This document shows positions 1 through 21,078 of a DNA stretch of 64,000 nucleotides, one piece after another. This DNA comes from Seiridium cupressi (Eukaryota; Ascomycota; Sordariomycetes; Amphisphaeriales; Sporocadaceae). Both the position numbers and the translations under genes were made by a program. The stretch lies in contig JARVKI010000004.1 of the NCBI GenBank assembly GCA_036674765.1, positions 434,001 to 498,000 of the forward strand. The letters are read 5' to 3'. Under the pieces are notes generated by a model that was not told the origin of the DNA, did no database searches, and saw only the letters and a list, made by a program, of their open reading frames with translations. How positions within the stretch are numbered: position 1 is the first letter of the stretch; every line of letters begins with the position of its first letter.

Positions 1-509
1 ACGCCAAACAATGGACACTCAGAATCGACAGTGGGGTCGACGACCGAGTGCCTCAATGAATATCGTCCGTTCTCAGGACGGATGGTGCCAGTTCGATAAC
101 TTGAGCTTGCAACCAGCCAAATAACAAGAAGTCCCCGCCGATCTCACTGCATACCGAACAGATTGCAAGGATGCTCTCCGGGTAGGGCATTGGATTGCAT
201 CTCCTATCTAGAGTTCTTGTCCGACGCAACGCTAGTCATGTCCGTCATATGCACCACCCCCACTCTTGACTGGGCCGCCGCGGCCGTGCCTTATCAGGAG
301 TGGGACGGGCTCGCGATACTATGGCGCAGCTGAAGCTGTAGTGAACGACAAATGCCGGTGCCACGCCGAAGGGCTTTGCGCTGCCCGAGTACTCCCTATC
401 CCACCTCTGGATTGAGTTTTTGCTCCTCTCCGGCCAACAGTGGAGGACTGCGAGTGATCCTCAATTGAATCTCATCCCATTGTCTTGTGCACAGACCAAG
501 AGCGAAGAA
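1..509 (+). promoter_or_regulatory. Upstream region of the hxnR-like regulator
   Basis: There is no supported gene here. It holds a CCCCCAC element at 257-263 and a CTTATC (GATAAG on the other strand, the AreA-type nitrogen-control consensus) at 290-295. Both motif types recur in the other promoters of the cluster. The function is inferred only; AreA control of hxn genes is known from A. nidulans. Confidence 0.35.
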
Positions 510-3500
510 ATGGAGAGACGAGCTGGACAGCGACGGACTGCCACTGGCACTGATGCCAATGAGAGGGCCAAGAGTTTTTTATGCAGTCATCCTGGCTGCG
601 GTAAACGGTTCAGTCGGCTCGAACACCAGAGGCGTCACGAGTGAGTATACTCTCCGGGGCTCTCCATACAAGCTTGCTTTGCTGCCTGTTTGAGGAGCAG
701 TTACCAATCCCCCAAGAGCTACAGCCCTGGAACGGGCTTCGGTAGTCCGAATACATACTGTAGCCTTGAGCAGCTTGAGTGTCCGTAAAGATCATTGGTA
801 ACCATAATGATATAGATACAACCACGGTGTGGGTGATGCAACCTGTCCTCGCTGCAGTGCACATTTCAAGCGACCCGATCTCTTAGGTAAGCTATTGCAT
901 ACAGGTCCGCGTGCACGTCGTCGGATCTGACCATCTCGGTATAGAGAGACACTTGAACCGACATCGCCAAAAGGACGAAGAGGCCGGGGGCGAAGGTTAC
1001 GGTATACTCAACACACGCAAACGTGCCTGGAAAGCACCAGACGGGAGTGTGGTGCCAAAGAAACCTTCAGTGACAGCGCAACAGACATCGCACAATCAAC
1101 CGTCCCGTCAGAACCAAAGCGACATTGTGTCTTCCGGACAGGAAAATAACGCCGGCATTCCCATCTCACCTCCTGCATCAACGGGGCACTCGGATCACGG
1201 CCAATTCCAGGAGTTCCCGCACGAACAACACGATGATTCCAATTTGTTATTGGGCGGAAATTCCTGGTCTTCGGGTATCGGCTCCATCGAAGAATCCAAC
1301 GCAGATGTTCAAGAGAACTTTTGGGTAGATCCGGGTCTTCTGCCACCAGCCATACCAGCATCGCAACAGTTCGCGTTGCCGTATGATGATATTTTCCAAC
1401 CTGATACCGCTAGTTCCTTTAACATGTAAGTGCATTGGCTTCTTGTCATTTCCCCTGGTTGTGCGGAGGCATTACCCTGATCTGTCCCATCTCGGCTCGC
1501 TCGACATATGGGACTAATTATTGAGCTGTACCTCGTTATTGGCACTATCCGTTCATGAATAACTAGTAGTTACTGACCTCCTGCGACGATATAGGCCATA
1601 TACGACTGCAGCAAACTATCACTGGTTATTTGAACAAAACAACACAATTTTCGACACATTGGCTGACCAATGTGCGATGGATATTGACTCTGGATTTCAG
1701 ACGACTATTCCTTCTCAAGAGTTCCAATCGATGGGTATGGAACCTATGGTACCAAACCATGAGCATTCTGCTCCAACAAAACTATCTTGTGATTCCATCC
1801 AAAATCAAGGAGCCGGGTACCCTCAGGTTATCTCTCCAGCTAGCAAAATCCAGGCACCAGCACGTTCGGCTGAGCGAAGCAGCAACACAACTGCATCAAA
1901 TGTGTCTGGAAGGAACACAGAAAGCGTTGTGTCACAAACGAATCATGCTACACCAGCCCAACTATCTCACAAACCTCCCCCCTCTAGCGAACTTGAAAGG
2001 CCATTATCAACACTTAGACCACCTTCGAGGCTACCCGTCATTCATGATGACGCCAGGGATAGACTCTTGGAAATCATCGATGTCGCACAGCCAGCTGTGC
2101 CAAGTGGGTCATTCAGTGCTTGGGATCACGATCTTCTCTCTCTCGGTGCTCTGCAAGACTACCTTGACCTCTTCTTCACCAAATTCAACACCACCTACCC
2201 TCTCATCCACTGCGCTACGTTTGATGCGGACAGAACAGAGCCTCTCCTGCTGCTTTCTGTGCTCCTGCTCGGAGCCACATATTCAAACCGAGACGCTCAT
2301 CAATTGGCTGTATGCATACACGATGTTGTGCGTCCTCAGATATTCGCACATGCCGGCTTCAGTGCAAAACCAGAACTCTGGGTGCTGCAAACTATCTTGC
2401 TCGTAGAATGTTTCGGTAAATCAAGGGCCGGGCAGAAGCAGCATGACATGAGTCATCTTTTCCACGGCTTGTTGATAAATCTTATTCGCCGATCTGATTG
2501 CCAGACAGTACAGACAGCTCCTTTCAGGAAGCCTCCAGCTGGGAAGGACAACGCGGAGGTCTATTGGCGTCAGTGGGCTGAGGCGGAAGAGAAAAAGCGT
2601 CTCGCTTTACTTTGTTTCATGTGGGATACCCAACATGCAGTTCTATTCTGCCAGAGTCTCTGCATGTCAGCTTTCGAGTTACGACTTTCAATGCCTTGCA
2701 GTCAGGCGCTCTGGGAAGCCAATGATGACACCAGGTGGAGAGAGATTCAAAATGCGGAGTCTCAGCCTGAGATCTCATACTTGACTGCTCTGAAGTCTTA
2801 CTTGTTCAATCCGGGTAGTCAACGTCCAGCACAACTCAATGCGCTTTCACGAGTACTCGTGCTACATGGCCTTATGTCGATCTCCTGGGATCTAGAGCGA
2901 CGAGACCAGACAGCACTTGGTGTTGTGAGCTTCGTCGGTGGCGTCAATTGGCGGAACAGACTAGGAGACGCCTACGACCTTTGGAAGACAGATTTCGATT
3001 CTTACTGCTCCGAGTATGTCATCAAGCAACGACAGTTGAGCCAAGCTCCGGGTAACGAATCGGTTGATTGGAATACAGCGCGCCGGGAGTTTGCAACATT
3101 TACCACCGCCTACAATAGCATATATCGGGCGGCACACATCCTCCTGAACTCGTCGTTCTTAGATGTGCAGATATACGCCGGGTCTCGACATATCCTGGGT
3201 CGTCCTATCAGGAGAGGGGATTACATCCGCTCGGAAAAGATAGTGAGGCGCTGGACCTCAGGAAGTGATGGCGCAGACTTGGCGCCGTCCTTCGATTCAC
3301 CGAGGCCCGGAAATCCCGCCGAAGAACCCGTATCTACATCCGCGGCAGTTGCAGCCCATCACGCTGCATGTATGCTTCGCGAAGCGTCCACTCATTTGGA
3401 CGACTTTGACTCAATGGGCATCTTCCATGTTCCGTGGTGCTTCTACCTGGCAACACTAACCGTCTGGGCTTTCCAACATGCGCGTCCGAGTAGATGGAAT

Positions 3501-3749
3501 GGCAATGAGGACGAAAGCAGCGAGATGGTGTGGGATGCGAGAAAGGAGATGGATGAATTACTCTCCAGCATGACCGGCCCAAAGCTGTGGAAGCTGGGCT
3601 CGACCCAAGGCCGTGGCAGTACGGCTGGTCTTTGTTTCTATATGAGTGAGGTGCTTGGGAGAGTGCGCTGGGGCATTGTCCATGCTGGTACGCTGGTCTT
3701 GAAGGCTCTCATTCCGATGAGATTGGTCGGACAATATGAAGGTTTATGA
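510..3749 (+). CDS. hxnR: C2H2 zinc-finger / fungal-specific transcription factor, HxnR-like cluster regulator
   Basis: Predicted nuclear activator of the adjacent nicotinate-type catabolic genes. Exons 510-640, 816-886, 945-1425 and 1595-3749 join exactly in phase (945 aa). Two C2H2 fingers sit at the N-terminus. Finger 1 is in exon 1 (CSHPGCGKRFSRLEHQRRH). Finger 2 is split by intron 2 (CPRCSAHFKRPDLL, then ERHLNRH). A Ser/Gln-rich linker follows, then a long helical region of the fungal-specific TF domain type (YLDLFFTKFNTTYPLIH, a WDTQHAVLF segment). This two-finger plus Fungal_trans architecture is that of HxnR, the specific activator of the A. nidulans hxn regulon. The assignment rests on architecture and on the gene content next to it. 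A different C2H2 regulator of the same family would look similar. Confidence 0.82.
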
Positions 3750-4379
3750 CATGTTTAATGGAAATGACCATAATGAGAATTGGAGAACCACATTTATTAG
3801 ATGATATAACTACAACAGTCTCATAGAAAAATCATCTATGCGTCGACATGCTGATGCACTTGCGAACTGTGGTTGCAAGCCTCTCAAATGACTTGTAGTG
3901 CCTTGCATCGTAGCGGCATTGGTGCTACCCCCACCCTTATTCGCAAGGTCGCGAGCCGCTGGATCCCGGTTGTTGGGGACTAATTCTATATGCGTAGCAT
4001 CAGGATAACGTTCAGGGCAAAGAATTGCAGATTTTTGACACCAAGGCCAGGAATACATCATCTCTGCCTGAAGCCGAAATTGCAAAATGTTTCTGTCAGG
4101 CGATGAAGCTGGAGGCTCACACAGGGTAACGAAGCCAACTGCTGGGATCACTAATGTGGTGCTAGAACCTAGGTCACCCCGCCTAGCACTAGAGCGGTAG
4201 GCTTGACCCCCTGCAGTGCAATGTGCTGTTGATGTCTGCTGCCAAGCATCTCTGGCTACATATACCTACATTCCAGGATGGGGTATAGGGGCGTGAGTTG
4301 ACTATCGCATTCATTGATCTTAGTTCAGTCGAGTGGAAATATTTCAAGCAGAAAATTTTGGTTTGTCTTTCCATTAAAG
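3750..4379. other. Convergent intergenic region between hxnR-like and hxnM-like genes
   Basis: Both flanking genes end here, so it should mainly hold 3' UTRs. A 113-codon minus-strand frame (3810-4151) has no recognisable domain and was not called. A CCCCCAC element lies at 3928-3934. Nothing else stands out. Confidence 0.5.
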
Positions 4380-5606
4380 TTACTTGGTTTTCTCCAGCAT
4401 TGCTAACACCTCCTCCTTCGTCGCTGGAGTCATAGCGCCTTCAGGGACTGGGTTTTTACTCTTGAAGTAATCACACATCTGTATTGAAGTCAGTATATAG
4501 CTAGGGAAGAGAAGTGGTTGTAGATTTACCTGTTCCATTGTGACCCACTCAACCCCTTCATGCTTGTTGATGTGTTCGATTATCCTGGAAATTCGATAAG
4601 TCATTGCTCGGGCACAACTATAGCGCGTCAAACGTACCTCTCATGCATGAGCAGAACATGTGGCCTGCCAGAGACGTCTGGGTGAATGGTCATTGGGAAT
4701 ATGAACTCGTCATATTCGCGATAGAAGTAGTCGAAGTGATCGCGCCATATGTCCTCCACATCTCTGTGAGCACTAGTGTTAGCACATTGCCTGGTATCAA
4801 AGTCGCGTTTGGTTAGGTGCAGTGTGTGTTCACTTACCTGGGGTTGACCCAACCATGCGAGTTGGCCGACTTTTTCATAAACATCATCGGCGGTAAATCG
4901 TCGATATACCAACTTCCTGGGATCTCGACTAAGCCTGTCTCTTTGCCCTTCACCAGAGGCTTCATCCATGTCTCAGCCTTTTGAGAATAGTCGATCTTCG
5001 TCCATGTATCCCCCGTGCGGAGCCAGTACATTTGACAATCCCTAATTGAAAGTCAGCTCTGACAGTTTAGTAGTATGGAACAGTCTACCGACTCGTGACT
5101 CATGGAGTGATCATATTCTATGCCGTATTTCAGCATCAATTCAGTTCCCTCCGCACTCGTTTCCCACCACGGTGCTACACTCCCACGAGGGGGCTTTCCG
5201 CAGAACGCAGTCAGCATCCGGAAGGTCTTGTCCAGCACATCGCGTTGCTGCTCGATTGACATGTCGGATGGATTCTCATGGCTATAACCATGTAGACCGA
5301 TCTCATGCCCGGCATCTCTCACCATCGCGCATTCTTCCGGAAATGTTTCCAGAGAATGGCCCGGGATGAACCAAGACGCTTTGATGTTGTACTTGTCAAA
5401 GAGCTTCAGGAGCCTGCGGGTACCGACTGTGCCAGCCCAGAGACCGCGACTGATGTCTGAAGTGCTGTCCTCTCCTCCATAGGAGCCTAGCCATCCGGCG
5501 ACGGCGTCAATGTCGACACCATAACTGTGAATTGTCAGAAATCTGGACAAGTAACATGTCGAAGAAATCTATCGTCTTACCACACCAAGACCTTCTTCTT
5601 GCCCAT
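4380..5606 (-). CDS. hxnM: Cyclic-imide hydrolase of the polysaccharide-deacetylase fold, HxnM-like
   Basis: Probable ring-opening enzyme. In A. nidulans HxnM hydrolyses 3-hydroxypiperidine-2,6-dione to alpha-hydroxyglutaramate. Six exons (5606-5581, 5524-5093, 5041-4838, 4763-4638, 4584-4530, 4478-4380) give 313 aa in phase. The second donor is a weak GTCGGT, chosen because it is the only one keeping frame. The protein starts [16 protein letters not shown], with the first NodB-type acidic motif. It also has HGYSHENP (metal-binding His pair) and a C-terminal motif VLLMHER. It is related to the HpPgdA/PuuE-like branch rather than to secreted chitin deacetylases, and it lacks a signal peptide, which fits a cytosolic imidase. 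It is divergently paired with the SDR at 6241. Confidence 0.82.
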
Positions 5607-6240
5607 GATTATTCAATGAAGACTCTGTGAAGTTTGATAGTACTATTTGAATTTGAGGTATGGTGTATGCTGAGTGGCGCAGGTGAGAACTATGATATTC
5701 GGGTTATTGGTAGACTGCAATCCAATCTTGGTGATCCGCTATGGGCTGACGCACTCGATTTTGACTTCCTCTCACAGTTCAGTATGGCCTCACATTTGTC
5801 ACTATTGCTTTTCTGGTGACACGACCTTATCGCGAGGCCGAGCATATGCACGCATCCGATAGTCGGGCCAGCACCGTTTCAGGAGTCCTTACCCCACCTT
5901 CGCCGCCTTAGTGGGATGCACGACGAACCCCCCTGAAGATAAGTCGGGCACTGCCGAACAATGTCTGGTCCTATTCTCCCACTCCCCAACTTTGGGAAGG
6001 GGATTGGTTCCACCAGGGCGCCGGCCTATGCTGGTTGCAGTAGGGTCAACATGGCTGCCAAGGTCCGCATTTAGCTCCACCGTAGGGGAAGAGGAATATC
6101 TTATGGATATCTCGATGTTGTGGTGACTATGATAGAGATCTCATTGACCTAAGACGCATTTTGTTACACTATCAACTATAAGCAAACCAAATTACTGCCT
6201 GAACCAGTACTTATTCAAAAGCAGTACCGCAGTTGAAAAT
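5607..6240. promoter_or_regulatory. Divergent promoter of hxnM-like and hxnW-like genes
   Basis: No coding potential is supported. It contains CCCCAC at 5892-5897, CCCAC at 5978-5982 followed by TCCCCAAC at 5983-5990, and AGATAAG (GATA-factor consensus) at 5937-5943. CCCCAC read in reverse fits the CreA consensus SYGGRG. It could equally be a site for the C2H2 cluster regulator. The sequence alone cannot separate these. Confidence 0.4.
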
Positions 6241-7062
6241 ATGAGTAAAGTATGTATGGCCCCAATGGTCGGCACTCCATGGCATGTTTGCTCATAATAT
6301 TTTGCATAGTTTTCTTTGAAGGGACGGGTGGCGTTGATAACCGGTGGTGGTCGTGGTTGTGGCCTAGCATTTGCCCAAGGGCTCGCGGAGGCCGGTGCCG
6401 ACATCGCGGTGTTCGACGTGATAGAGCCCGTAGCTGGATACCATAGTTTGGCATCAGAGCATGGCGTCAAGACCAAAGCCTACACAGTGGACGTCACGTC
6501 TGCGGAGAGCTTAGCCAAGGGCTTTGCGGACGTCAAGGCGGACTTCGATGGGAAGCTCGACATTGTGGTAGCTTGCGCGGGTGTGAACAAGAACGTCGAG
6601 TTTCTGTCGACTACGGATGGAGAATACGACAAGCTCTTCGCCGTAAACAGCAAAGGTGTATTCTTCACGGCCCAGCTTGGCGCGAAGGCCATGATTGAAA
6701 ATGGCACCAAGCATGGCAGCATCATCCTGGTCGCCAGTATAGCAAGCCACATGGCCATTCGTTCGCAGCGTTCGTCAGCATATTGTGGCACGAAAGGCTC
6801 AGTGCGAGCCATGGTCGCCCCGATCGCCGCCGAGCTCAACCAGCACAAGATCAGAGTGAATTCGATTAGTCCGGGTTACGTTCGGACAGAGATGACTGCT
6901 CCTTTCCCTCACTTGCTAGAAAGCTGGAAAGACGAGATTATGAACGGCAGAGTGGCCGAGCCGGACGACATTAAAGGCGCTTGTGTTTTCTTGGCCAGTG
7001 ACGCAAGCATGTACTGTACGGGAACAGATATTCTTGTAGATGGCGGTGTCACGAAGTGGTAG
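6241..7062 (+). CDS. hxnW: Short-chain dehydrogenase/reductase, HxnW-like
   Basis: NAD(P)-dependent oxidoreductase. In the A. nidulans pathway HxnW oxidises 5,6-dihydroxypiperidine-2-one to 3-hydroxypiperidine-2,6-dione. A 9-nt first exon (6241-6249, Met-Ser-Lys) is followed by an intron with GTATGT donor and GCATAG acceptor, then exon 6310-7062; total 253 aa. The N-terminus becomes MSKFSLKGRVALITGGGRGC, which carries the TGxxxGxG cofactor motif. Further SDR features are the NNAG-like ACAGVN, the catalytic Ser in LVASIAS, YCGTK (YxxxK) and the C-terminal GTDILVDGG. The tiny first exon is supported by the frame and by an N-terminus typical of classical SDRs. It is paired head-to-head with the hxnM-like gene. 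Confidence 0.82.
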
Positions 7063-7464
7063 TTTAGAATAGCAAATTTCCAGGAGATACCAAGTATACA
7101 ACTGGAATTTTAAGCACCGTCCGTCTTACATGGCGTGAAGTTAATGAAGCCAGCGTTTCCTAGTGTTAGATAGATCAAACGGCCTTGATCATCCGTGCCA
7201 TTCGCAATCTTTCAACTAGGAGCCAAATTTTATAGTGCAGCCACCACCAATCTAGACGCTTTGGCCTGTTGTGAGATATCAACACAGTAAACCTGTTAAC
7301 TTAGTCTTTGATGTTAAATGAAACCGGTTTATTGATCTATGTGTTTGAGTATGGGCGTTACATACCAGCTAATTTCAACTCTGTCAAAAAGTTTCTCTAT
7401 CAAGCGGCACGCACTTTCTACCGCAGATTGTGTCAAATGGCGAGGAAATTCAAGTCCCAGCAGA
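7063..7464. other. Convergent intergenic region, hxnW-like / hxnN-like
   Basis: 3' ends of the two flanking genes face each other. A short plus-strand frame overlapping the end of the amidase gene is only a shadow. No other signal was seen. Confidence 0.5.
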
Positions 7465-9397
7465 CTAAGGCTTGCCTCGAAAGATTTCATCAAATAGCTT
7501 ACCAGCTGCCAGGATCTTCTCTTCCTCTAACTTTCTGCCAATGATCTGTATACCAACAGGTAAACCTAGTCTGATCATATCCTCCTTGTTCTTTCGCCAC
7601 AGCTCCGCATTCCAGTCATCCATTGCATTGCGTGCCTCAAAATCCCACACTGTGTCTTTGTCCTGCTGTTCAGTCTTTCCGCCAGGAATGACCAGGGCGC
7701 TGTAGTCAACTAGATTCCATATCTTCGTGTAGCCAACCCACCTACATCCACCATGAGGTACACTCGTGTGTGGCATGGGCGGCATAATGAGGATATCAGC
7801 CGTTCGCCCCGTTACAGGGCTTCTTATTCGATTCCACTTCTCAAGATAGGCTTGTTGAATGGCCCACTTCTTTCTGTTCAGCTGCCAGTATTCGTATACG
7901 CTGATAGCCCCGCCTCGATTCACCAGTCTTTCCACGTGAGGAATGAACGGCTCACCACAAGCTGCCACATCAGTCCTGATGTCTATCCCACCATCAGCTG
8001 AGTAGAAAGCATCCATCACTGCGATGCCCTCTAGGTGAAGCGACGCATCCCACTCGATTATGTCATGTCCAGCGGCCTTTAGCATCTCAACTACAGAGCT
8101 TAACACACGAGTTATCGGTGGATGCGGTCGCACAACTCCATCATCGAGGAGCACGCCAATTGTTAACGGCCGGGATAAGCACGAATCGTAAAGCTCATTT
8201 CGCCATGGTATAGGAGCACAACGAGCGTCGTGCTCCCACGGCTTGGCGTCAGCAAGGGTTCTCATGACATAGGTGATAGACGAGAGACTCCGCGCCATGG
8301 GCCCGATTGAGGATGGCACATGCTCTTGGCCTTCGGTTGAAACTGGAACACCAGTATACGGAAGCCGGGAACTCTATATGGAATCGTGTCTTAGCTAACA
8401 TTGATCAATGGGCAGCAATCAAACTTACGCTTGGCTTCAAGCCGTACAGTCCCATCATATGCGACGGGATTCGGATGCTCCCTCCAATGTCTGTTCCCCA
8501 TGACACCATGCTACCATTCAGAGCAAGGAGAGCTGACTCGCCCCCAGTCGAACCGCCAGGTGTGTATGATGAGTCCACTGGGTTCGTTGTCAACCCCCAA
8601 AGGGGATTATCCGTCTCGCACCACTAAAACCTTTTTTTTTAGCTATAGAAGCACCTCCTGGTACAATGTTAGGAGGCATACCATGATGCTCTGAGGCAAG
8701 TTCGTCTTGGCCAGTATGACAGCTCCGAGCGAGCGTAGCATTTTGACGAGAACGGCATCGTCCTGAGCGGGTTTCAACGCTCTACCAACGTAACCAATTG
8801 TGCTGTCGTAGCCCTTGACGTTGAATTGATCTTTTAGTGTCATCGGTATACCATGCAAAGGGCTGAGGCTGCTATTCCCTACGCACACCCTGGAATCCGA
8901 GTCTTTGGCGTAGTCGACTGCATCATCAAATGCTATCTCAGTCAAGCTATAAATCGATCATTAGAGGCGATATTGAGAAAATGAAGGAGACCCAAACCAG
9001 TTTGTCTTTGGTAAAAGTCAGCATCACGTCCAGATCGTTGCTAGATCAGTTTGTAGAATGGGTTAGTTACCTTCTCATGTGCAGCGATGGCACTGTTATC
9101 CTGTTAGCGGCTCGTTTCTCCAAATCGTCGCCTGGTCAATTTACCTCTCAATATAAGATCTCACTACTGCTTCTGCATTCACATTCCCGGAAGCGTATAA
9201 TTTCTGAAGATCTTCGATATTTGGGATAGTGCTATAATCCTGCTCAACTTCTGTGCCGATCTGGATGGTTCGTCTTAATCAGCATCTTGTCTCTCACATA
9301 TAAATGCCCGACGTACAGCTTTGGCTTTATACGATCCTATCGCTGCAGCTTGAGCCTCGCGCTTCTGCGTGACGATTTCTTGCCATGTCATTCTCAT
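7465..9397 (-). CDS. hxnN: Amidase-signature hydrolase, HxnN-like
   Basis: Predicted amidase. In A. nidulans HxnN releases ammonium from alpha-hydroxyglutaramate, making alpha-hydroxyglutarate. Seven exons were reconstructed: 9397-9317, 9260-9145, 9092-9071, 9005-8998, 8946-8682, 8623-8429 and 8373-7465. They sum to 531 aa with no phase conflict. The Ser-cis-Ser-Lys triad is visible: Lys in PLHGIPMTLKDQF, cis-Ser in GGSTGGESALLA and nucleophile Ser in GTDIGGSIRIP. The start is MRMTWQEIV; a second Met is two codons downstream. The gene contains an 8-nt and a 22-nt exon, needed to restore the family-typical segment AIAAHEKTNCLTEIAFD. It is paired divergently with the flavin monooxygenase at 9974. 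Confidence 0.85.
8998..9005 (-). other. 8-nt microexon inside the hxnN-like amidase
   Basis: The minus-strand octamer ACAAACTG lies between a CCAAAG acceptor and a GTTTGG donor. It is flanked by introns of 65 nt (9006-9070) and 51 nt (8947-8997). Including it gives HEK-TN-C-LTEIAFD, the usual amidase spacing, and keeps the exons before and after in frame. Skipping it shifts the frame. It is inferred from frame and splice signals only. Confidence 0.65.
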
Positions 9398-9973
9398 TTT
9401 GGTAGCCTTGTCGTTAAAATTCAAGTCAATGCAATGATGTGCTGTACTCGTAGATGATTGCCCTCGCGGTACTCTCAAAGCGTCCATGGACCATTGGTCA
9501 CCCAAACCTGTGGTGTTGTGCACACCAGTGGCTAGTGCTATCAACGACCTGCATCAGCGGACGTTCCGCTTCTCGGATCCTTGGCCGCTGCAAATATCGC
9601 CGAAACCGCCCCAGAATCGACAAAATTCCCTTAACTCCACTAAACACTAGCTCTTTCTGACAGCTTGGGGGGTTCGTTTCGTTTACCTGCGGGACAGCGT
9701 GCTGGCCAAGAGTGGGGGATTGCCCGTAGCGTGATCTTGTGCATAGTACGACCGGCGCAAATCATGGGCCCCTGAGGCACTGTGGCATGGCGCCATTCTT
9801 CACCAATTAGGACTCTACTATTGTTTGGGTATAATCGCCCTATCATAACATAGGTGGAAGTCATCGACGACGAAAGCCCATGTAACCAGGCCTATTGCTA
9901 CTTCAGAACACCCAATGCATCGCGAAGCAATCTAAATACGTGACGGCTTATTCAATTCCTACAATCATTGATC
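9398..9973. promoter_or_regulatory. Divergent promoter of hxnN-like and hxnV-like genes
   Basis: It holds GTGGGGG at 9712-9718 and CTATCA (TGATAG, HGATAR consensus) at 9840-9845. No coding frame here is convincing. The shared motifs with neighbouring promoters suggest common control. Confidence 0.35.
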
Positions 9974-11963
9974 ATGGCCCCTTACATCACCGGATCAGAT
10001 ACCGACATGGCTGGCACAACCACGATGGAGTCCGTGGAAACCACAGCAGTCAATGGTAGCCTGTCTCAACCTGGACAGTCCGAAAATGAGCAATGCGACG
10101 TTTGCGTTGTTGGTGCAGGTCCATCTGGCCTGATGCTTGCAAGCTTGCTTGCTCGGTTTGGCATCCATGTCATTACGCTTGATGAACGGCCTGATCAGAC
10201 GGCTGTTGGCCGTGCCGATGGCATTCAACCCAAAACTATCGAAACCTTTCGCATGCTAGGAATCTGCGATGAATTACTTCGATTGGGCATTAAGATTTAC
10301 GATATCTGCATGTGGAAAGGATCTTCCACGCAGAAGCTAACACGAATGGGTCGTGAGGTTCATTACCCCGACTCGATCGTGGATATACTCGAGCCATACA
10401 TTCTGATCGGCCACCAAGGCATGATTGAGAAGGCTTTCCTTGACGACTTGCATCAGCGTGGAGGGAAGGTCAAGCGATCTCATAAGTTCAGGAAATGCGA
10501 AGCTCGGGAGAATCAGAGTGGCCGCCCCATTGTGGTACACTCAGATTTCAATGTCACACAAGAAGAGAAGATCATCGAAGCCAACTACGTGGTTGGCTGT
10601 GATGGTGCACATTCTTCGGTTCGAAAAATGATATTTGAGTCGCCGAGGACATCTGGGGCCAGTGTTTGGGGTGTTCTCGATGGAGAGCTCGTCACAAACT
10701 TCCCTGATATCTGGAGCAAGACGGTCATCTTTTCGGAGGAACATGGGTCAATCTTGATTATACCTCGCGAAAGGAACATGACCAGATTCTATATCGAAAT
10801 GAAGGAGTCCGCCTCATCGAAGGATCTCGGCCAGGAATATGTCATGCAGCGCGCTAAAGATATCTTCAGCCCATATCATGTTGAATGGAGTTCCGTCGAA
10901 TGGTTCGGCAAATACCAAGTTGCACAGAAGGTTGCCGAGAAGTTCGCAGATCCCAGCCTCCGCATCTTTATCGGCGGGGATGCTAGTCATTCTCATTCAC
11001 CGAAGGCTGCGCAAGGGCTGAATACTTCTGTCCACGATACATTCAACCTGGGCTGGAAGCTGAACCTGGCTGTTCGAGGTTTGGCAAAGCCTGTTTTGCT
11101 TCAATCGTACGAGGAGGAGCGTCAGAAGATCGGCCAAGATCTGATTGACTTCGATTACGAGCACGCGAACCAGATAGCTAGCGGAGATGCTGCTGCCTTA
11201 GCCGAGAACTTCCAGAAGAACATTCGATTTATTTCGGGGGTGGGCGCAGAGTATGCACCAAATACGATCAACAAAGCGACCCTCGATATTCGCGGATCTG
11301 CACAGCCTGGATGCAATCTGCCTCCAGCGAAGGCTACTCGCTACTATGACGCCAATCCTGTCGATGTGCAATTAGACATCCCTATTCTAGGCCAATTCAG
11401 GGTATACACATTTGTGCGAGATGTCACTTCAGCCCCAGATCGGACATTCCTAGACTCGTTTAGCAGCTCATTGCTTGACCCGTCATCCATTGTATCGCGA
11501 CTCTCTGCCGCCGCACAAGAGTCTTATCGGAAAGTCCCACGAAAGGCTTCGCCTGAAGAAGTATATATGAGACCCGAGAGATACACAACTGTTAGCCAAC
11601 TGTTCACGTACTGTTTGATAAGTAAGTAGCACGAATATCCAACTGGGTCAGTGACTGACTTTTTCGATAGCGATGACTGAAAAATCACTATTTGAAATAG
11701 CTGATCTGCCGGACATTCTCTCCAGAAGCCCGTGGACTGTCTACCTCGATAACATTCCAGAGCTTGATACCAGGGGTCAGACCTGCACCGAGAAATGGCT
11801 CGGTGATCTGAGCCGAGGAGAAGTTGCAGTTGTCGTTGTTCGGCCAGACGGGTATGCTGGTGCAATTGAGAGGTGGAATACTGCTGACGAAGGCGCTGGG
11901 AAACAGGCCGCACAAGCGCTTGACACCTACTTCGGGAATTTTCTGCAAGTACCGGAGCTGTAG
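9974..11963 (+). CDS. hxnV: FAD-dependent aromatic monooxygenase (phenol hydroxylase family), HxnV-like
   Basis: Flavoprotein hydroxylase using NAD(P)H and O2. Exons 9974-11621 and 11671-11963 join in phase (646 aa). The N-terminal FAD domain has the GxGxxG motif in [23 protein letters not shown] motif follows in [11 protein letters not shown], and the GD motif is in [19 protein letters not shown]. The C-terminal third, including [10 protein letters not shown] near the end, is the thioredoxin-like domain typical of phenol 2-monooxygenase (PheA/TfdB group). HxnV of A. nidulans has this architecture. Its exact step is less certain than that of M, N, W and Y. The start is the ATG at 9974, after an in-frame TTG. 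Confidence 0.8.
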
Positions 11964-12247
11964 AGTCATAATGAAAATTACTTCTTAGTCTTGTTTCAGT
12001 TTCTCTGCATAGCATAGTAGAATAGACCATAAGCTAAAGCTTATGCGTTCGAGTGACAACTGCTCGTGTTGCAGGATGAAATGAAGCGACCTTAGGATCA
12101 ATCTGATACAAACGGGATCGATTTGAAATTTATGCCACGAAGTTGTTAGGGTATATGCGTTTAGATTGAAACCCGGTCACCGAGATTACACGTTTAAAAT
12201 TTAGTGTTGTGCCATCATACTCGAACATTAGATATACCGCGTGCTAT

Positions 12248-13601
12248 TCACCATGCTAGTTGCGGGCTTGTCTGGCACGCTTCTGCGTCCAGTTTGGAAC
12301 AAAATGTTTCTTCCTCCGTCAGCTTCCCCGTCCTCATTTGCCCTGCCACCTTCTGGGCTGCCGGCCAAATCTCTCGACCTTCTTGCTCCTCTTTCTTCCT
12401 GTGTTCCATGACCTCTCTTCTTACTGATTCTTGAAAATGCAGCGGACCCTGTACACGCGAAGTTAGCTATCAGCCACCGTTTAATGGAATCTGGAGACTG
12501 TTCCTACTTTTTCCTTGTCGGGATGAAGCTCCCCAGTAACATATACGCCTGCGCTGAGATTCTTCTGGGCTCCTTCGCAGAGGCCTTTGTCTTCTTCTAG
12601 GACTTGAGTGTAGAAATCGCAAAGCGCTTTGAACTTCTCATCGGTAGCATTCTTGTGGCGGTACACTTCGTTTTCTATCCTGCTTGTCGTGGCTGAGACC
12701 GGAATCATCCGTTGTATATAGAAGAAATGCTCACTATATGGCCATGTCAGATTTTCAAGTCCAAGAAATGCTTCTCATAAAATCGTTGTACTCACGTTAC
12801 TGTGACCGATGTACACGGAGGGAAGAATGTGATTGATCTTCTGAAGCTGTTGTCGTCCATGTTTTTGTTGATTATAGTATGCTCGAGGCAACCCAGCGCA
12901 GGTTCGACGCGATACTTGGTAAGATCAGAAACACCAGCAATGAGCGGGTGCGATGTCTGACAGTGATAACATTCGTTGTAGTTGTCTATAAGCCCTTTCC
13001 AGTTGGCTTTCAAGTCCATATCCCACTGGTGGTCGAATTTGAATTCGTTCTCAAAGTCGAACTCCTTCAAGATTGGCTTCTCATCGGCCCCCTGGAATTC
13101 GCTTTCCCATTTGATGTCTGGTTCTCCTGCCTGGAGATTCGCCCACACGAATCCCACTTTGTCGATATGCACATGTATCGGTAGGAGACCATGCTGCGTC
13201 TTGTCGAAGTCCGGAACTGTATCGAATCTCGGCGCTTTCGCGAGGTTGCCCTTGAGCCCATAAGACCAGCCATGGTATTTGCAGCTTAATATCTTGGCAG
13301 TGCCTGATTCGGATTCCACAATCGGATAGGCTCGATGCCGGCAGATGTTGTGGAAAGCATTGATGTTGCCCTCGCGGTCTCGCACGAGGAAGAATGAGAA
13401 ACCTGCGTATGTGTACGACAGATAGTCACCAGGCTGGCTGATTCTGATGGAGTGAGTTAAGAGAATCCATTTTCTTGAGAAGATGGCTCGTCGCTCCAGC
13501 TCGTACATGCTCGGAGACCTATACCATGATGAAGGCAAGGCCCCGGACGGTGGAGTCTTATCTGATTGATCTGAGGCTGGGTAGCCGAGTAGACGCCACA
13601 T
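12248..13601 (-). CDS. Rieske non-heme iron oxygenase alpha subunit, choline-monooxygenase-like
   Basis: Oxygenase that would hydroxylate or oxidatively demethylate a small substrate, needing a separate reductase. Exons 13601-12796, 12733-12508 and 12448-12248 give 410 aa exactly in phase. The Rieske [2Fe-2S] cluster is Cys87-His89 (NICRHRAYP) and Cys107-His110 (CKYHGWSYG). The mononuclear iron site is Asp207, His213 and His218 ([16 protein letters not shown]). The NYNECYHCQ motif is typical of choline monooxygenase and related quaternary-amine demethylases. The gene is divergent from the hxnY-like gene and sits inside the cluster, yet no Rieske protein is among the eleven A. nidulans hxn genes. 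The substrate is unknown. An N-methylpyridinium such as trigonelline, or a pyridine ring intermediate, are hypotheses. No reductase gene is seen nearby. Confidence 0.9.
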
Positions 13602-14207
13602 GATTATTTCAAGGTTTTGAAGAATGTACTGTCAAAACCGATGTTTTCCACTGATCGAGTTCAGCTTCACGCCCTTGGTTACTATACTGCTCTACGCTAC
13701 GGCTCATATCAGCCCAGTCATATACTGACCTATTCTTTGACTAATACTTCATACAACTATCTTATCGATGCCTAGTGGACCCCGCTCAGCACGCCACATT
13801 ACGGGTCGCCCGGATTCTGGTCTTGAGATCGTTCCACTTAGTGCTGAACTCTCCAAACCCACTACTCTAGGAACTGGTTAGCCTAGCTCCCCACCCTCAT
13901 GAACTTCTCCCCACCTCCTATCGCTACCCGCAATTGGAGGGTGTGTCGGTTTCAGTTGTCCCTTTCAGTGATTGAGATGTACTGCCACCCCACTCTTGCT
14001 ACCATGGGAAGGCTTAGCCGGTTGGTCGCCGGGTGATTGGAACGACGGTTCCAGCTACGGCAGTGAAGACTGGAGGATATAGCATTAGGAGGTTGTCACC
14101 AAGTCAAGCCATTAGCTGAGTGCATCGTCAACGAGATCAGTCGCCTGTAGGATTCCTCGAACTATACTGTAAATCTTAAGCTCTACTCGTATCGATTGCC
14201 CAGCAAG
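13602..14207. promoter_or_regulatory. Divergent promoter of the Rieske oxygenase and hxnY-like genes
   Basis: This is the richest motif region of the cluster. CCCCAC occurs at 13889-13894, 13909-13914 and 13988-13993. GATA-type sites overlap at 13757-13766 (CTATC, then CTTATC). The same motif set in this promoter as in the M/W and N/V promoters is the main sequence evidence that the Rieske gene belongs to the regulon. Confidence 0.45.
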
Positions 14208-15648
14208 ATGGCTGACCTAGAGATCCCCATTATCGACTTCAGTGGTAAGGACATTCCATACCCTGACAGCCCATCATAGAAGGAATGTGTTGTCTAACAA
14301 CGAACAATAGGCTTTTACTCAGATGAACCTAATCGCAAACAGGCTGTGGTGGATCAGGTTCGCAAGAGCTGTCTCTACAACGGGTTCTTTCAGATCATAA
14401 ACCACTCTGTACCACTAGCACAACAAGATGGAGCTTTGAGCGCCGCGAAGAAATTCTTCACTCTTCCCCAGGAGGAGAAGGACAAGGTCTCCAAGAACAA
14501 CAACACATGGAACCGAGGATACGAGATGCTGAGATCTCAGATTCTCGAAGAAGGAACACAGCCGGAGCTGAAAGAAGGCTTTTACATTGGAGCGTACGTT
14601 GCAGTGTCATCCCATACGCCTTTTAGCACCTTGGGAGTAAACAGTTCCTGGTTCAATTGTTTTTGCTGTTCAAGCTCAGGTTTCAGCTCCTAGTTATGCA
14701 CCAAGTCTACCCGACGCAGGATTCGCTGACCCCAATTCTTTCAGTGATCTGCCGGCCACTCACCCCTATTTCATCAACAAGAAGCTCAATAGCGGACCCA
14801 ACCAATGGCCCGAGGGTCTTGGATCCGACCTTGGTTCTTTCAAGACCGGCACGATGGACTACTATAATTCTACATTCAATTTGGCCTCAGATCTGTTGAG
14901 GGTGATTGCTCTTTCGCTAGATCTGGAGGAGAATTTCTTCGCGCAATTTGCAGATGGCGCTGTAGCTACTATGAGGCTTCTTCATTACCCTAGCCAGCCG
15001 AAGGATGCAGAGGAGAAGTTGACACGTGGTATCGGTGCCCACACTGACTTTGGAGCCATTACCATGCTGCTTCGTAAGTAGTTTCCTCGTCTCTTTTAGA
15101 TTGTTTTCCAGGAGAGATCACATGTCGAGGGTGGAAGATGCTCATGATTATTCTCAACACATCATCTGGCTGCAGTAAATACCGCTCGCTGATGATCAAT
15201 AGAGGACGAAGTAGACGGTTTGCAGGTCTGGGACCAGCGCAATCAGACCTGGATTGATGTGAGTACCCATGGTTCATCCTGATTATTGGTTATACTGACA
15301 ATGAGACACAAGGTCGAGCCGACGAAGGGTGGCCTGGTCGTGAACCTCGGCAACCTAATGCAGAGATGGACTAACGAGAAGTATAAGAGTAACGTACATC
15401 GTGTGATTAACAAGAGCGGCAAAGAGCGCTACTCGATTCCCGTCTTTCTTTCTGGCAACCCCGACTTCCTGGTCGAATGTATCCCAACTTGTCGAGCACC
15501 GGAGGAGCCCGCTAAGTTTGAACCCATTACCGTTCAGCAGGCAGTGTCCGCTGCCTACGCTGAGTCCTACGGCAGAGCACAGAAATATAAGCAAGGGCTG
15601 GAAAAGGCAATTGATAGTCAGACACAACCACAGACAGTCCAAGTCTAA
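14208..15648 (+). CDS. hxnY: 2-oxoglutarate/Fe(II)-dependent dioxygenase, HxnY-like
   Basis: Hydroxylase of the isopenicillin-N-synthase-like family. In A. nidulans HxnY hydroxylates 5-hydroxypiperidine-2-one to 5,6-dihydroxypiperidine-2-one. Exons 14208-14244, 14311-14593, 14745-15073, 15203-15258 and 15313-15648 give 346 aa in phase. The N-terminal DIOX_N segment starts MADLEIPIIDFSGFYSDEP. The Fe(II) facial triad is His and Asp in GIGAHTDFGAITML plus His in YKSNVHRV. The 2-oxoglutarate-binding Arg-x-Ser is in KERYSIPVF. All are intact. The third exon begins after a 151-nt intron, the longest in this gene. Confidence 0.85.
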
Positions 15649-16611
15649 ACAAATGTTCAAAAACTTTCATGATGACGATCATTCTAAGTTAGCTATAGTA
15701 TTGAAAGTTTTCTGTAGAAATGTGACATTAGTAGTGCTTGGAATGTGACTAATCTTCTACGGTCACTGATCATCGATCAAGATAGCAGATATGCTACTTG
15801 AGAGCCATATTTAGCATATAACTAGCTAAGGTTATCGTTGCGCTCAACTTACACACCTAGCGACGGGATACTACACGCAAGATCAGGCCATGAACCCTTA
15901 ATGGCAACCCAGTAGGCTGTTGGTACGACAGTGTTTACCACTTGAAACACCACCTGCAATGGATCGACTGCTCATAGGGCTGCATAGAAATCCCAAAACA
16001 GGATGGGCGACTTACAACTAACTTTCCTAGAATTACCAATCATTTTTTTTGACTACCGTCATCCCTTTATTGTGATAGGAAAAGACGTCGAGCGGCCAAG
16101 GGTGGGGGTGGAATTTCCCCCAGAGTCCCGGGGAGGTGGTTGTGGGGTACAGATAAGGCGACCATCACGCAGCCGCTAGCATATCAGTGTAGCATGGCCA
16201 CTGGTCAAGGCAGTGAGACTCTTGAAACTTGCCGTGGTGGAGACCATGTCAGGGCAACTTGTTTACAGATAGCGATAACCCACTGTAAGTCTAGGGTGCG
16301 ATAGGTGTGATAGCTAGAACCAGGTCTTCTTCCTAGGTCCATCACTCCATGGAGCTATACATCTTTGGTCGAAAGCCACTTTGAAACTAGGCCATCACAC
16401 AATTGAATTACAATGAATACAAGTAGCCCCATCATCAGCCTCGCTACATGGGCTTCTGTTTGAAGTTGAGCCATTATCCCCTTCACACTCGCGGGCATAC
16501 TTGCTTCCTCGCTTTTACGACTTCCAGAAGCAGGACTGTGCATCTATTGACTTGAGTCTCACGCATTGTATATTTTTCCACTCGGCTTTTTCGCATAGCC
16601 ACTCCTTCAAG
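15649..16611 (+). promoter_or_regulatory. Promoter region of the hxnZ-like transporter
   Basis: The first part is the 3' end of the dioxygenase gene. The rest carries GTGGGGG at 16102-16108, GTGGGG at 16142-16147, TGATAG at 16073-16078 and AGATAAG at 16151-16157, all clustered within 90 bp. No coding frame is supported. Confidence 0.4.
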
Positions 16612-18869
16612 ATGGCGTCCGACCCTGAAAAGATTAGTTCTCATAAAGAAGCACAGTCTGGCCTATCTGGAGTTACCTCACCTTCCGTTCACAATGGCTC
16701 CATGGGAGTCGACGATGACGCTGCCATTAGGGACTTTTATGGCAGCGCCGTGAGTGAGGTATACCGACTCAAGTCTGAACTGGTGTCGGAACACTTGCTG
16801 AGTATCGGTATGGGAAAGTGAGTAAACTTCGTGTACTCACCAAAGAGAGGTGTCTGCCATTTTCTGCTCACAATATAAAATTTTGGTGATTTTACAACAT
16901 TTTCTAACATAACTCCTATCTTCAGATTCCAATGGATCATGTTCGTTGTCAATGGCTTCGGATGGGTCGTCGACAATTTCTGGAGTCAGGGCCTCACCGC
17001 TGTGCGCCCGGCCGCTGCCAACGAGTTCACGAGCACAGTCAGCCCTAGTTTCAGCTCGGTAGCATACTATGTCGGACTTATTCTTGGCGCCTCATTTTGG
17101 AGTGCTTCAGCCGACATATTTGGCCGAAAGTGGGCGTTCAACGCCACCATACTGATCGGGGGTTTGTTTGGTTGCGCCGTTGCAGGGGCACAGGTACGCA
17201 GCCACCACAGATATTCTTTTGTAGTCTACATCGATCTGTTGCTCAACCCGATATTGAGAACATTGTTAAAGTTTGTCAAAAATAGGACTTCGTGACATTT
17301 TCTTCCTTATGGGCCCTTATTGGCACGGCCGCGGGCGGAAACGTTCCCGTGGACAGTATCGTGTTCCTTGAGTTTGTAAGCTACTTTTCTCGACCCTCAT
17401 ATTTAAGCAACACTGTCATGGTCAATCCATCAGTAAACCTATTATACAATCCACATATACCTAAGAGCTCATGAAGTTAACTCATAGCGCTCATTCAGGT
17501 CCCTCAAACTCATCAGTGGCTAGTTGTCTCACTATCTGCATGGTATGTGGCCCTCATCACGTCCCCACCCCGTTCCAGCCAACCGGGAAAAGTTAATAGA
17601 GAATTGCTAGGTGGAATCTTGGACAGGTGATTGTCGCCCTGCTCAGCTGGGTATTTTTTGCCAACTTCTCTTGCTCTGATGACACCAATTGCAGCATGAA
17701 AGACAATATGGGATGGTCAGTACAATCACATTAGCTCCTGAATAACCAGGACATTAAGTTTTGTTACAAACAGGCGTTACCTCATGATCACATTGGGTGC
17801 AATTGCCCTAGCATTTGCTTTGATTCGAATCCTCGTCTTCAAGATCCCCGAATCTCCTCGATACCTGCTCTCGAAAGGGAGAGACGCAGAGGCGGTTGAA
17901 GCGGTCAACTATATCGCAAGATACAATGGCAAGCCCGAGACATTGACATTGGAAATGCTCCAGGCGATCGACATACAGACTGGAGGACATATTTCGATTA
18001 CGTCAAGCCCAGAGGACCCAAGTTCTGGGGTATCTACAAAAGGCCTTCCATACGTACAGCTCTTGAAAGAGAGTTTCAAGGATTACAAGTCTTCGAATAT
18101 ACGCCAGCTGTTTGCCGGTCGAAAGATGGCGCAGCATACTAGTGTCACATTCCTGATCTGGTTGACCATTGGCATCGCATATCCTCTATACTTCGCGTTC
18201 ATCACCTCATACCTTCAGGCGAACTCAAACTACACCACGGATTCTTCCTTGAGCTACACATACAAGATATACTGCATTGTTTCGGCGGTGGGTGTATTAG
18301 GCCCACTGGCTGCCGGATTTGCTGTGGAGACAAGGCTCGGAAGGCGGTGGATGATGGCAATGTAAGTCAAACTTGCCTGGCCCTAATGTCCGGTATCTCA
18401 AACAACGGAGCGGAGTGCCGTGAGGAGCCGTGAGTGATTAAAACGCTGACATATCATGACAGCTCTGCTATTCTCACAGGAGTTTTCCTCTTTGCCTACA
18501 CGGCAGTCCGCTCAGAAGCATCTGACATCGGTTTTCAGTGTGCCACGGGAATTCTCGGAAACTTCGGTAAGTCTCATAGCCTCCCCAGAAACACATGTAG
18601 GCGGCAATGACTTAATGCTTGGTTTTCTCATAGAATATGCTATCATGTTTGCTTTCAGCCCAGAAAGCTTTCCAGGCCCGGTACGAGGAACAGGAACGGG
18701 TATCGCTGCTTCGCTTCTACGTTTTGGTGGTTTGATCGCAAGCTTAATCTCCATTTACGGCGGTGGCTACACTGTCATACCTATCTACGTATCAGCAGCG
18801 CTGTGGATCGTGGTTGGAATATTCTGTTTCGGACTACCATACGAGACTCACGGTCACGCATCTATCTAA
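16612..18869 (+). CDS. hxnZ: MFS transporter, HxnZ-like
   Basis: Plasma-membrane permease predicted to import a pathway substrate or intermediate. Eight exons (16612-16817, 16926-17193, 17286-17375, 17499-17542, 17611-17715, 17774-18361, 18463-18566, 18634-18869) sum to 546 aa in phase. A hydrophilic N-terminus of about 70 residues precedes the first membrane segments (WIMFVVNGFGWVVDNFW). MFS signatures include ADIFGRKWAFNATILIGGLF, the mid-loop FKIPESPRYLLSKGR, and FSPESFPGPVRGTGTG near TM11. It resembles the SV2/niacin-transporter-like branch to which HxnZ belongs. Whether the substrate is nicotinate or a derivative cannot be read from sequence. Confidence 0.8.
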
Positions 18870-19347: not shown

Positions 19348-21078
19348 TTAGAGCTTGATGCCTTGCGCTTCGATGGAATACGCGCCTCTTGCTCGGCGAG
19401 CATTTGATACGTGCTCGAGCTGGGACCTGTTCAAGAAATGGTCATGACACCATTTGCCCATATCGACATTGTTTGCCCTTTTGGCTCGTCCGTAGGCGTG
19501 CAGAGCGTTGAGTTCCGTGATAGGATCGGATAGAGGGTGTGCAGATTCGGGGTTCCCAATGCAGTCCGCTGCATCTCGAAATGCATTTGGACGAGAGCAA
19601 ATTGGGTATTGGCTGCTGGCAATAGCCACAATGGCACAGCTGTCCTCCAGACAACCAAGGCTCTTAGCTGCCGCTAATACTCGATACCAATGTGGCTCAA
19701 CGGGCAGTAATGCTGCTCGTTTGCCCTCGCTTGTGATTCTTACGATGCTCTTTGTTGTGGCAGGCGCAGCCGTTTCGACTACATGTTCAACTAGCTGCCT
19801 GAAAACGTAGGTTGTCAGCATTATCATAACTCGACATATTGGAAATGAGCAACTACGAAGACTTACATGTCTTTAAGCTCGAAAAAATGCTTCTAGCATG
19901 CTCTCCAGAGCCGAAGCATCTATGAAGTCGAGGGCCAATGGATCCTTGACACCAGCATTCAGCAATTACAAGACTGTAGACGCCAAGTTGCTTGTCAGAA
20001 TGGCTGGACACGTTGTGGGTCGAAGAGCCTCATCAAACGCGTTTTTGGTGTAGAGTCTGAAACACATTCCGTCTCGATATTGGTGGTCAGAATGCATCTT
20101 CGAAGATTTCTTGGTTGAAACATAAGATCCTGTTGTGCCTTAGGCAAGGATCCATATATGGGCAGGATGTTCATGGAGCTAGTCTCACTGCTGAGCGCGT
20201 CGCGGCAGCGCTCAACTTCTTCTTCGCCGCTCAGGAAAACCACGATAGTTCCCTCTGGCATCGTAGTGTGAATGAACAGAGCTAGCTTCAAAGCCATATC
20301 GAAGTAGTCGACTCCGGCTGCGAAGCGATCAGGTGGAGAGATGGTTTGGGTTTTTCCTTCTTGTTGGCTTGTATTGTTATGAAACCCAAGAAACAACTCC
20401 TTGGCTTGGTGTTGGCGCCCGGAGATTTTGAGTAAGGGTGCGGACTTTCCACTGGCGTTCGTGAAGTAAGCTCGGAACTTTTCGGCGTCTAGAGTTGCCG
20501 ATATGATGATGACTTTCAAGTCTGGTCGAAGCTGCAAGGCACGCTTTATAAACACCAGAAGCGTATCAGTCGCAAGCGATCTCTCGTGCGCCTCGTCGAT
20601 GATGATACAGCCATAACGGGAGAACCGAACGTCGTTGGAATTCTCATGGAGGATGAGCGCATCGGTGGTGAACCTGATCCTCGTGCTGTCGGTCTCCACG
20701 TGGTCAAGGCTGACATCATACCCAACCTCTTCGCCGAGCTCGACATCTGGTTCCAGGGCGACACATTCAGCAGGTGACCTTGCCGCTAGTCGCGGGCTGT
20801 GTGACTACGATCTGCTTGTCTCCCTCAATCTCATCGTATCGCACATATTGTGCTAGTTGGGTCGTTTGTCCTGAGCCAGTCTCGCTGACGACGACCATGA
20901 CTTGATTCGTATGGCACATGTCCAAAACTTCTCCTCGATTCTGGGCAACAGGAAGCTTGCGGCGATCCTCCCACACTTCGTAGTATCTTCTGGAGAATGG
21001 CTGGCCGCTGACGGGATTAATCTCCCCATCCTCTAAATTCTTGGCCCACTCCTCGGTCGTCTTTTTGAAAGGCATCAT
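19348..21078 (-). pseudogene. Degenerate DEAH-box RNA helicase (Prp43-like) relic
   Basis: A broken copy of a DEAH-box spliceosome/ribosome helicase. From the start at 21078 it reads through a recognisable RecA1 domain: RRKLPVAQNRGEVLDM, Walker A written ETGSGQTTQ (catalytic Lys replaced by Gln), then a stop and frame change near 20770. It continues with LGEEVGYD, intact IIIDEAHERSLATD (motif II) and IISATLDAEKF (motif III). The region with motif VI (QRxGRAGR) is missing: the frame jumps from TTNIET into a remnant of CFRLYT-type sequence around 20050. A winged-helix/HA2-like tail (EPHWYRVLAAAKSLGCLED, then KWCHDHFLNRSQLEH) lies at 19827-19348. Several lesions and loss of key motifs make function unlikely. 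The intact parent gene is expected elsewhere in the genome. Confidence 0.75.

Follow-up and report, generated by a model that had tools for sequence, protein, structure and literature searches.

The window analyzed here, a 64,000-nucleotide stretch of the genome of the ascomycete Seiridium cupressi (contig JARVKI010000004.1, hereafter C4, positions 434001-498000, in a 45.4 Mb assembly), almost certainly contains at its left end the larger part of an hxn (nicotinate) catabolic cluster, among whose genes stands one for a Rieske oxygenase (window positions 12248..13601, minus strand, 410 amino acids (aa), 3 exons). We propose that this gene is an overlooked member of the hxn regulon, whose product would supply the pathway with a pyridine that is N-methylated or quaternary in some other way. 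We infer the substrate from enzyme type and context, a betaine-type pyridine being the natural guess for a Group V enzyme in this cluster. Taken as a whole, this explanation, that is, a ten-gene hxn cluster together with a Rieske regulon member acting on a cationic N-substituted pyridine, is regarded as probable.

Under such an explanation, the Rieske enzyme may widen the range of compounds that the nicotinate pathway can use, and it would stand as a Group V Rieske enzyme of a eukaryote whose physiological context can be guessed. The recurrence of an extra oxygenase in hxn loci suggests substrates ahead of 6-hydroxynicotinate in the pathway, which are untried in the hxn papers cited here, and makes testable a standing puzzle, namely that many fungi keep hxnR yet lack hxnS.

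The hxn locus and its published counterparts

Ten genes are arranged over 22.6 kb (C4:430277-452869) in the order hxnT, hxnX, hxnR, hxnM, hxnW, hxnN, hxnV, Rieske, hxnY and hxnZ, with X/R, M/W, N/V and Rieske/Y as divergent pairs. The eight genes from hxnR to hxnZ lie within the window (510-18869) and were resolved as adjacent, intact genes through spliced models built by hand, the end of the Rieske gene being checked separately, while hxnX and hxnT were found in the 10 kb to the left of the window (C4:424001-434000, hereafter L009). The domains of the seven hxn proteins encoded in the window match those in Table 1 of PMC8478523. Moreover, the regulator presents two C2H2 fingers and a PF04082 domain, the Pfam zf-C2H2 match being slightly under its cut-off, the set of enzymes X, V, T, W, M and N adjoins hxnR, and the active-site residues published for HxnX, HxnV, HxnT and HxnW (numbering from PMC9304392) are retained.

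The initial annotation had described eight adjacent genes with M/W, N/V and Rieske/Y as divergent pairs, placed together here instead of being split over three clusters as in A. nidulans (1/VI, 2/VI and 3/I; PMC8478523), and had considered their catalytic motifs intact. All of this is borne out, for the motifs where they were tested (the published residues of HxnV and HxnW are kept). Its interpretation stands in so far as it recognized an hxn cluster in one place, but its view of a compact cluster encoding exactly the lower pathway is rejected and almost surely wrong. Although all eight genes exist as described, hxnX and hxnT adjoin them directly left of the window (0.2 and 2.3 kb beyond its edge), HxnV is an upper-pathway enzyme, and the quoted conversion of 5-hydroxypiperidine-2-one by HxnY, HxnW, HxnM and HxnN differs from the pathway as described in PMC9304392, where the substrate of HxnW is 5,6-dihydroxypiperidine-2-one and HxnY is given no defined step. 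The novelty it implied for a one-locus cluster does not hold either: single clusters of 11 genes are reported for Cyphellophora europaea and Hymenoscyphus repandus and one of ten for Monascus ruber, divergent hxnM-hxnW and hxnN-hxnV pairs are conserved across Pezizomycotina classes (PMC8478523), and Xylariales were described in 2017 as maintaining hxn clustering (PMC5746545). The Rieske gene was named in that initial annotation, which drew no conclusion from it.

With known Pezizomycotina hxn clusters the present one shares the regulator, enzymes T, X, M, W, N, V and Y, transporter Z and the divergent M/W and N/V pairs. It differs from the published ones in the X/R and Rieske/Y divergent pairs and in having neither hxnS nor hxnP within the cluster, and from most of them in the Rieske oxygenase gene standing opposite hxnY, a place that hxnP occupies there. 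No hxnP was found in the cluster, the only part of the genome considered in this respect. Regarding hxnS, searches of the assembly with the families MoCoBD_2 and FAD_binding_5 gave one match each, separated by 1.7 kb on one strand of contig C37, which evidently belong to a single xanthine-dehydrogenase-type gene. Its active site reads FGISFTALWF, hence FTAL, whereas in the HxnS signature, FATAL, Phe and Thr are separated by an Ala (PMC5746545). This sole gene of its type is thus of the HxA type and was rejected as a candidate HxnS, and hxnS, not found by these two family searches, appears to be absent from the assembly. Published clusters without hxnS exist and its loss with retention of hxnR is known (40 of 139 species have hxnR only; PMC5746545), so that its absence is compatible with hxn membership; by published logic (PMC8478523, section 2.4), an organism without hxnS is expected to make use of 6-hydroxynicotinate though not of nicotinate. 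An hxn cluster lacking hxnS and hxnP is of a kind already known, and it is the Rieske gene that departs from published clusters and constitutes the new part. The word "rieske" has no occurrence in the main texts, as distinct from the supplements, of PMC8478523, PMC9304392, PMC7842363 and PMC5746545. Among the literature records returned, including the portion seen of PMC12566454, no paper dealt with a Rieske enzyme in connection with fungal nicotinate clusters, with trigonelline demethylation or with a fungal choline monooxygenase, and on hxnR nothing newer than the papers already known was found.

The Rieske oxygenase and its orthologues beside hxn genes

Relatives of the Rieske protein were gathered from three listings (the best 120 each of 1223, 767 and 961 matches), which together gave 153 proteins; two of the three queries were themselves relatives, P0048 and P0055. 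The nearest listed one, P0001, is 98% identical and comes from Seiridium cardinale (Sporocadaceae, Amphisphaeriales, an order formerly placed within Xylariales). Eight of the 153 are joined gene models, in which a match to a further hxn protein of the present cluster is found as well. P0048, from Aureobasidium melanogenum, combines the Rieske protein with HxnW (64%), and P0055, from Oleoguttula, combines it with HxnV (52%), while in P0121, from Talaromyces stipitatus, and in P0122-P0126, from Aspergillus avenaceus, A. caelatus, A. minisclerotigenes, A. pseudonomiae and A. pseudotamarii, the partner is HxnX (53-56%, the Rieske portion matching at 63-69%). These five Aspergillus species are members of section Flavi. 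HxnX is present in neither P0048 nor P0055, so that the choice of queries does not account for the six models with HxnX. The join in the five Aspergillus models leaves out the end of HxnX together with roughly 31 residues at the start of the Rieske protein, while the Talaromyces join lies elsewhere, and two different joins fit better with neighbouring genes merged by annotation than with one true fusion protein; in either case, the genes are adjacent. With P0048 as query, no further joined models appeared among the matches listed.

In a tree of 150 Rieske proteins (midpoint root), one group of 82 rows (SH-aLRT 100) takes in the window protein along with every one of the eight joined models. 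Among the 14 models longer than 480 aa, an hxn partner is found in all eight that lie inside this group and in none of the six outside it (P0069, P0129, P0131, P0133, P0136 and P0137). Linkage to hxn genes is known for nine of the 82 rows, namely the window and the eight joined models. As judged from gene models, the Rieske gene is thus adjacent to hxn genes in the window, in Aureobasidium, in Oleoguttula and in six Eurotiomycetes, with different hxn neighbours. Like insertions of the nfsA or pfdB type, it is an extra gene within the hxn clusters of some taxa; unlike them, it stands beside hxn genes in Sordariomycetes, Dothideomycetes and Eurotiomycetes, with differing hxn genes next to it. 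Sporadic insertions of nfsA, pfdB and others in hxn clusters are reported in PMC8478523 (section 2.5).

By sequence, signature residues and predicted fold, the protein is classified as a Group V (quaternary-ammonium type) oxygenase. Its closest solved relatives by sequence are CntA (9e-41) and then stachydrine demethylase, which also occupy the top ranks of a Foldseek search with the predicted model, and its match to the NCBIfam model GbcA reaches 140 of 670 bits. Group V is described as marked by a bridging Glu, a Cys-x-x-Cys motif and either an aromatic residue (clade Va) or Asn (clade Vb) at the position of CntA Tyr203 (PMC7948474, PMC10952381), the Cys pair occurring in only some members (PMC10952381). 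Here, the bridging Glu (E210) and the Cys pair (C211 and C214) are found in 82 of 82 orthologues, and Y208 occupies the cation-pi position of CntA Tyr203, as in clade Va (76 Tyr and 5 Phe, hence aromatic in 81 of 82), the equivalent residue of stachydrine demethylase being Asn. As these marks are common to the fungal paralogues too, they define the type of enzyme and not the hxn branch. The position of CntA Tyr295, a residue described in the literature as being in polar contact with the substrate, differs between them: matched by reading the alignment, it is Tyr in 68 of 68 paralogues and Asn in 64 of 82 orthologues (7 of the 9 linked to hxn genes), which indicates that the pocket of the hxn branch is altered. 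In summary of its affinities, the protein resembles CntA, Stc2, GbcA and choline monooxygenases in the Rieske CxH/CxxH motif, the bridging Glu, the Cys-x-x-Cys motif and the aromatic residue at the Tyr203 position. On the contrary, it differs from CntA in being fungal and only 26-28% identical (listed Foldseek alignments) and in the replacements of Tyr295 by Asn290 and of Asn270 by Thr267 (alignment reading), and from known Group V enzymes in its link to pyridine catabolism and in that no reductase gene was noticed beside it.

Paralogues were also observed in other settings. The models of P0129, P0131, P0133 and P0137, from Aspergillus and Penicillium, include a PF04082 domain that does not match this HxnR, possibly pointing to another small regulated locus of the same enzyme family. 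A second Rieske gene is located in the S. cupressi genome itself (C56:136155-137454), 46-55% identical in two matched stretches, and weaker matches lie on C66 and C147.

Promoters and the possible role of the Rieske enzyme

Sites of sequence GHGGGG for HxnR and HGATAR for AreA have been proposed (PMC8478523), and both were counted in the six promoter regions of the cluster (4360 bp in total, with a left boundary for the hxnT region that we set ourselves). Over all six, GHGGGG occurs 13 times, where shuffled sequences average 5.7 and 2 of 1000 reach this count, and HGATAR occurs 25 times, with a shuffled average of 12.6 and none of 1000 reaching it. The region between the Rieske gene and hxnY (13602..14207) holds the most HxnR-type sites of the six, with four GHGGGG (12 of 1000 shuffles as high) and three RGTGGGG. 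This latter form is present in every one of the six regions, with ten copies where shuffles give 1.1, and has 14 copies in 65 kb of other C4 sequence, its statistics being inflated because it was refined on these same promoters. Two of its copies lie between hxnX and hxnR (694 bp in all, window part 1..509), one between hxnM and hxnW (5607..6240, with six HGATAR), one between hxnN and hxnV (9488..9973, in CCAAGAGTGGGGG) and one upstream of hxnZ (15649..16611, with eight HGATAR). AreA sites are singly enriched only in M/W and before hxnZ. In the four 3'-3' gaps (1811 bp), GHGGGG occurs twice and RGTGGGG once, in each case within the R/M gap. When the extended site CCCCCACYCTTG was searched genome-wide, 13 matches were obtained, 3 of them inside this cluster, and no hxn-type gene was seen at nine of the ten other places (longest reading frames, by eye); the site thus reveals no further regulon member.

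Because the Rieske gene shares its promoter with hxnY and its orthologues stand beside hxnX, hxnW or hxnV in other fungi, it is probably a working member of the regulon. As to the chemistry, imported 6-hydroxynicotinate or 2,5-dihydroxypyridine would be converted by HxnX and HxnV into 2,3,6-trihydroxypyridine, which would be reduced by HxnT and then oxidised by HxnW, before HxnM opens the ring and HxnN deamidates the product to yield alpha-hydroxyglutarate and ammonium, a sequence of steps taken from published biochemistry. The Rieske enzyme would hold a cationic N-substituted pyridine by the cation-pi Tyr (Y208), receive electrons from a general reductase through its Rieske cluster and the bridging E210, and hydroxylate the N-methyl group, or the carbon next to N, so delivering a pathway intermediate. 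Uptake of a cationic pyridine would suit HxnZ, which among NCBIfam models comes closest to the cation-transporter subfamily TIGR00898, though far under cut-off (154 of 551 bits), and next to aromatic-acid symporters. That N-dealkylation of a pyridine is the enzyme's actual job is held with considerable doubt. More tentatively, the Rieske gene might be a twelfth regulon member, overlooked and partly hidden by joined models, that opens an entry from plant N-methylated (betaine-type) pyridines such as trigonelline or its 6-hydroxy/pyridone form, also in fungi lacking HxnS. The 11-gene A. nidulans pathway leaves loose ends, with HxnY having no step and two enzymes still to be assigned (PMC9304392).

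Several points weigh against the proposed explanation. The joined models are annotation and not DNA sequence, and two of them, P0048 and P0055, are labelled "partial", lie on short contigs (10 and 6 kb) and served as queries themselves, which favours such models. GHGGGG is singly enriched only in the Rieske/hxnY promoter (P 0.017; P 0.08 to 0.68 for T, X/R, M/W, N/V and Z), and this promoter shows no excess of AreA sites (three HGATAR, 307 of 1000 shuffles as high). With Asn290 in place of CntA Tyr295, the substrate cannot be read off CntA; confidence in the predicted model is moderate (mean pLDDT 76), and no reductase gene was noticed within the cluster. Were the product nicotinate, the assembly appears to have no HxnS to use it, and no Rieske gene is counted among the 11 A. 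nidulans regulon genes, so that nicotinate use in that species does not require one. Finally, two enzymes match the structures named for their published counterparts at low rank, since the structure published as nearest to HxnX, the 6-hydroxynicotinate 3-monooxygenase NicC, comes no higher than fifth here, and thymine hydroxylase, the structure named for HxnY, only eighth.

Some Rieske monooxygenases hydroxylate N-heteroaromatic rings, and with no HxnS found in this assembly the enzyme might take its place, hydroxylating nicotinate to 6-hydroxynicotinate and restoring nicotinate entry in hxnS-less fungi. The origin of the HxnX-joined models in Talaromyces stipitatus and section Flavi Aspergillus would agree with such a replacement, hxnS being reported as absent in both groups, except for an unclustered copy in some Talaromyces (PMC8478523). 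Nonetheless, signature residues, sequence and fold are those of Group V quaternary-ammonium enzymes and not of ring hydroxylases, and A. niger possesses an orthologue (P0013) and also hxnS (PMC8478523), which makes the replacement of HxnS quite unlikely. The same closeness to Group V by sequence, NCBIfam and fold would accommodate an enzyme with a general quaternary ammonium substrate (choline, carnitine or betaine) in a nitrogen-scavenging locus with no pyridine link, as would the enrichment of AreA-type sites over the six promoters together and the resemblance, under cut-off, of HxnZ to cation transporters. However, the gene adjoins three different hxn genes in different lineages, its promoter contains the most HxnR-type sites of the six regions, and its pocket is unlike those of CntA and the fungal paralogues at the Tyr295 position, and a general role of this kind is therefore considered unlikely.

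Considering that the Rieske gene and hxnY have a promoter region in common and that a detoxifying role has been suggested for HxnY (PMC9304392, section 15), both enzymes might instead work together in removing toxic pathway by-products, for example from 2,5-dihydroxypyridine, the Rieske protein then not being an entry enzyme. Nothing here ties Group V chemistry to dihydroxypyridines, and the other linked orthologues adjoin hxnX, hxnW or hxnV but not hxnY, making joint detoxification improbable. Entry of a cationic N-substituted pyridine through the Rieske enzyme is thus kept as the favoured explanation.

Individual genes and neighbouring sequences

Within the window, hxnR (510..3749, plus strand, 4 exons) encodes the transcription factor of 945 aa. 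It is followed by hxnM (4380..5606, minus, 6 exons), for a cyclic imide hydrolase of the polysaccharide-deacetylase fold (313 aa) whose best solved match is 3qbu (HpPgdA, 7.6e-132), the same structure as named for A. nidulans HxnM, and by hxnW (6241..7062, plus, 2 exons), for an SDR dehydrogenase (253 aa) in which the active-site Asn is offset by two positions. The amidase gene hxnN (7465..9487, minus, 561 aa, 7 exons) faces away from hxnV (9974..11963, plus, 2 exons), whose product is a phenol-hydroxylase-type flavin monooxygenase (646 aa) with phenol 2-monooxygenases as best solved matches and the 3-hydroxybenzoate hydroxylase 2dkh in fourth place. On the other side of the Rieske gene, hxnY (14208..15648, plus, 5 exons) encodes a 2-oxoglutarate/Fe(II) dioxygenase (346 aa) that matches fungal biosynthetic dioxygenases best, thymine dioxygenase being represented by 5c3p, and hxnZ (16612..18869, plus, 8 exons) encodes an MFS transporter of 546 aa.

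Left of the window, hxnX (L009 8160-9815, minus) encodes 470 aa, with all eight residues cited for A. nidulans HxnX present, one of them displaced by one position, and with a C-terminus, RANL, of peroxisomal type (compare catalase KANL). Among solved structures, its NicC match (1.3e-44) is preceded by entries whose records name a 4-hydroxybenzoate decarboxylase, a vanillate 1-hydroxylase, an unnamed FAD protein and a tropone 2-monooxygenase. The product of hxnT (L009 6277-7667, plus, 412 aa) keeps the three cited ligand residues and matches OPR/OYE structures.

Further left, sugar-transporter-like sequence occurs in several frames (L009 3243-4800, that is C4:427243-428800, minus); by eye it looks degenerate, possibly marking where the cluster ends on the left. 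Beyond it, a frame like a fungal secreted peroxidase was noticed (L009 136-930). Directly right of hxnZ, DEAH helicase-like frames lie in pieces (window 19995-21249, minus), and at 40932-42200 (minus) there is a long FAD-monooxygenase-like open frame with no visible introns, unrelated to the cluster, these features too being recognized by eye.

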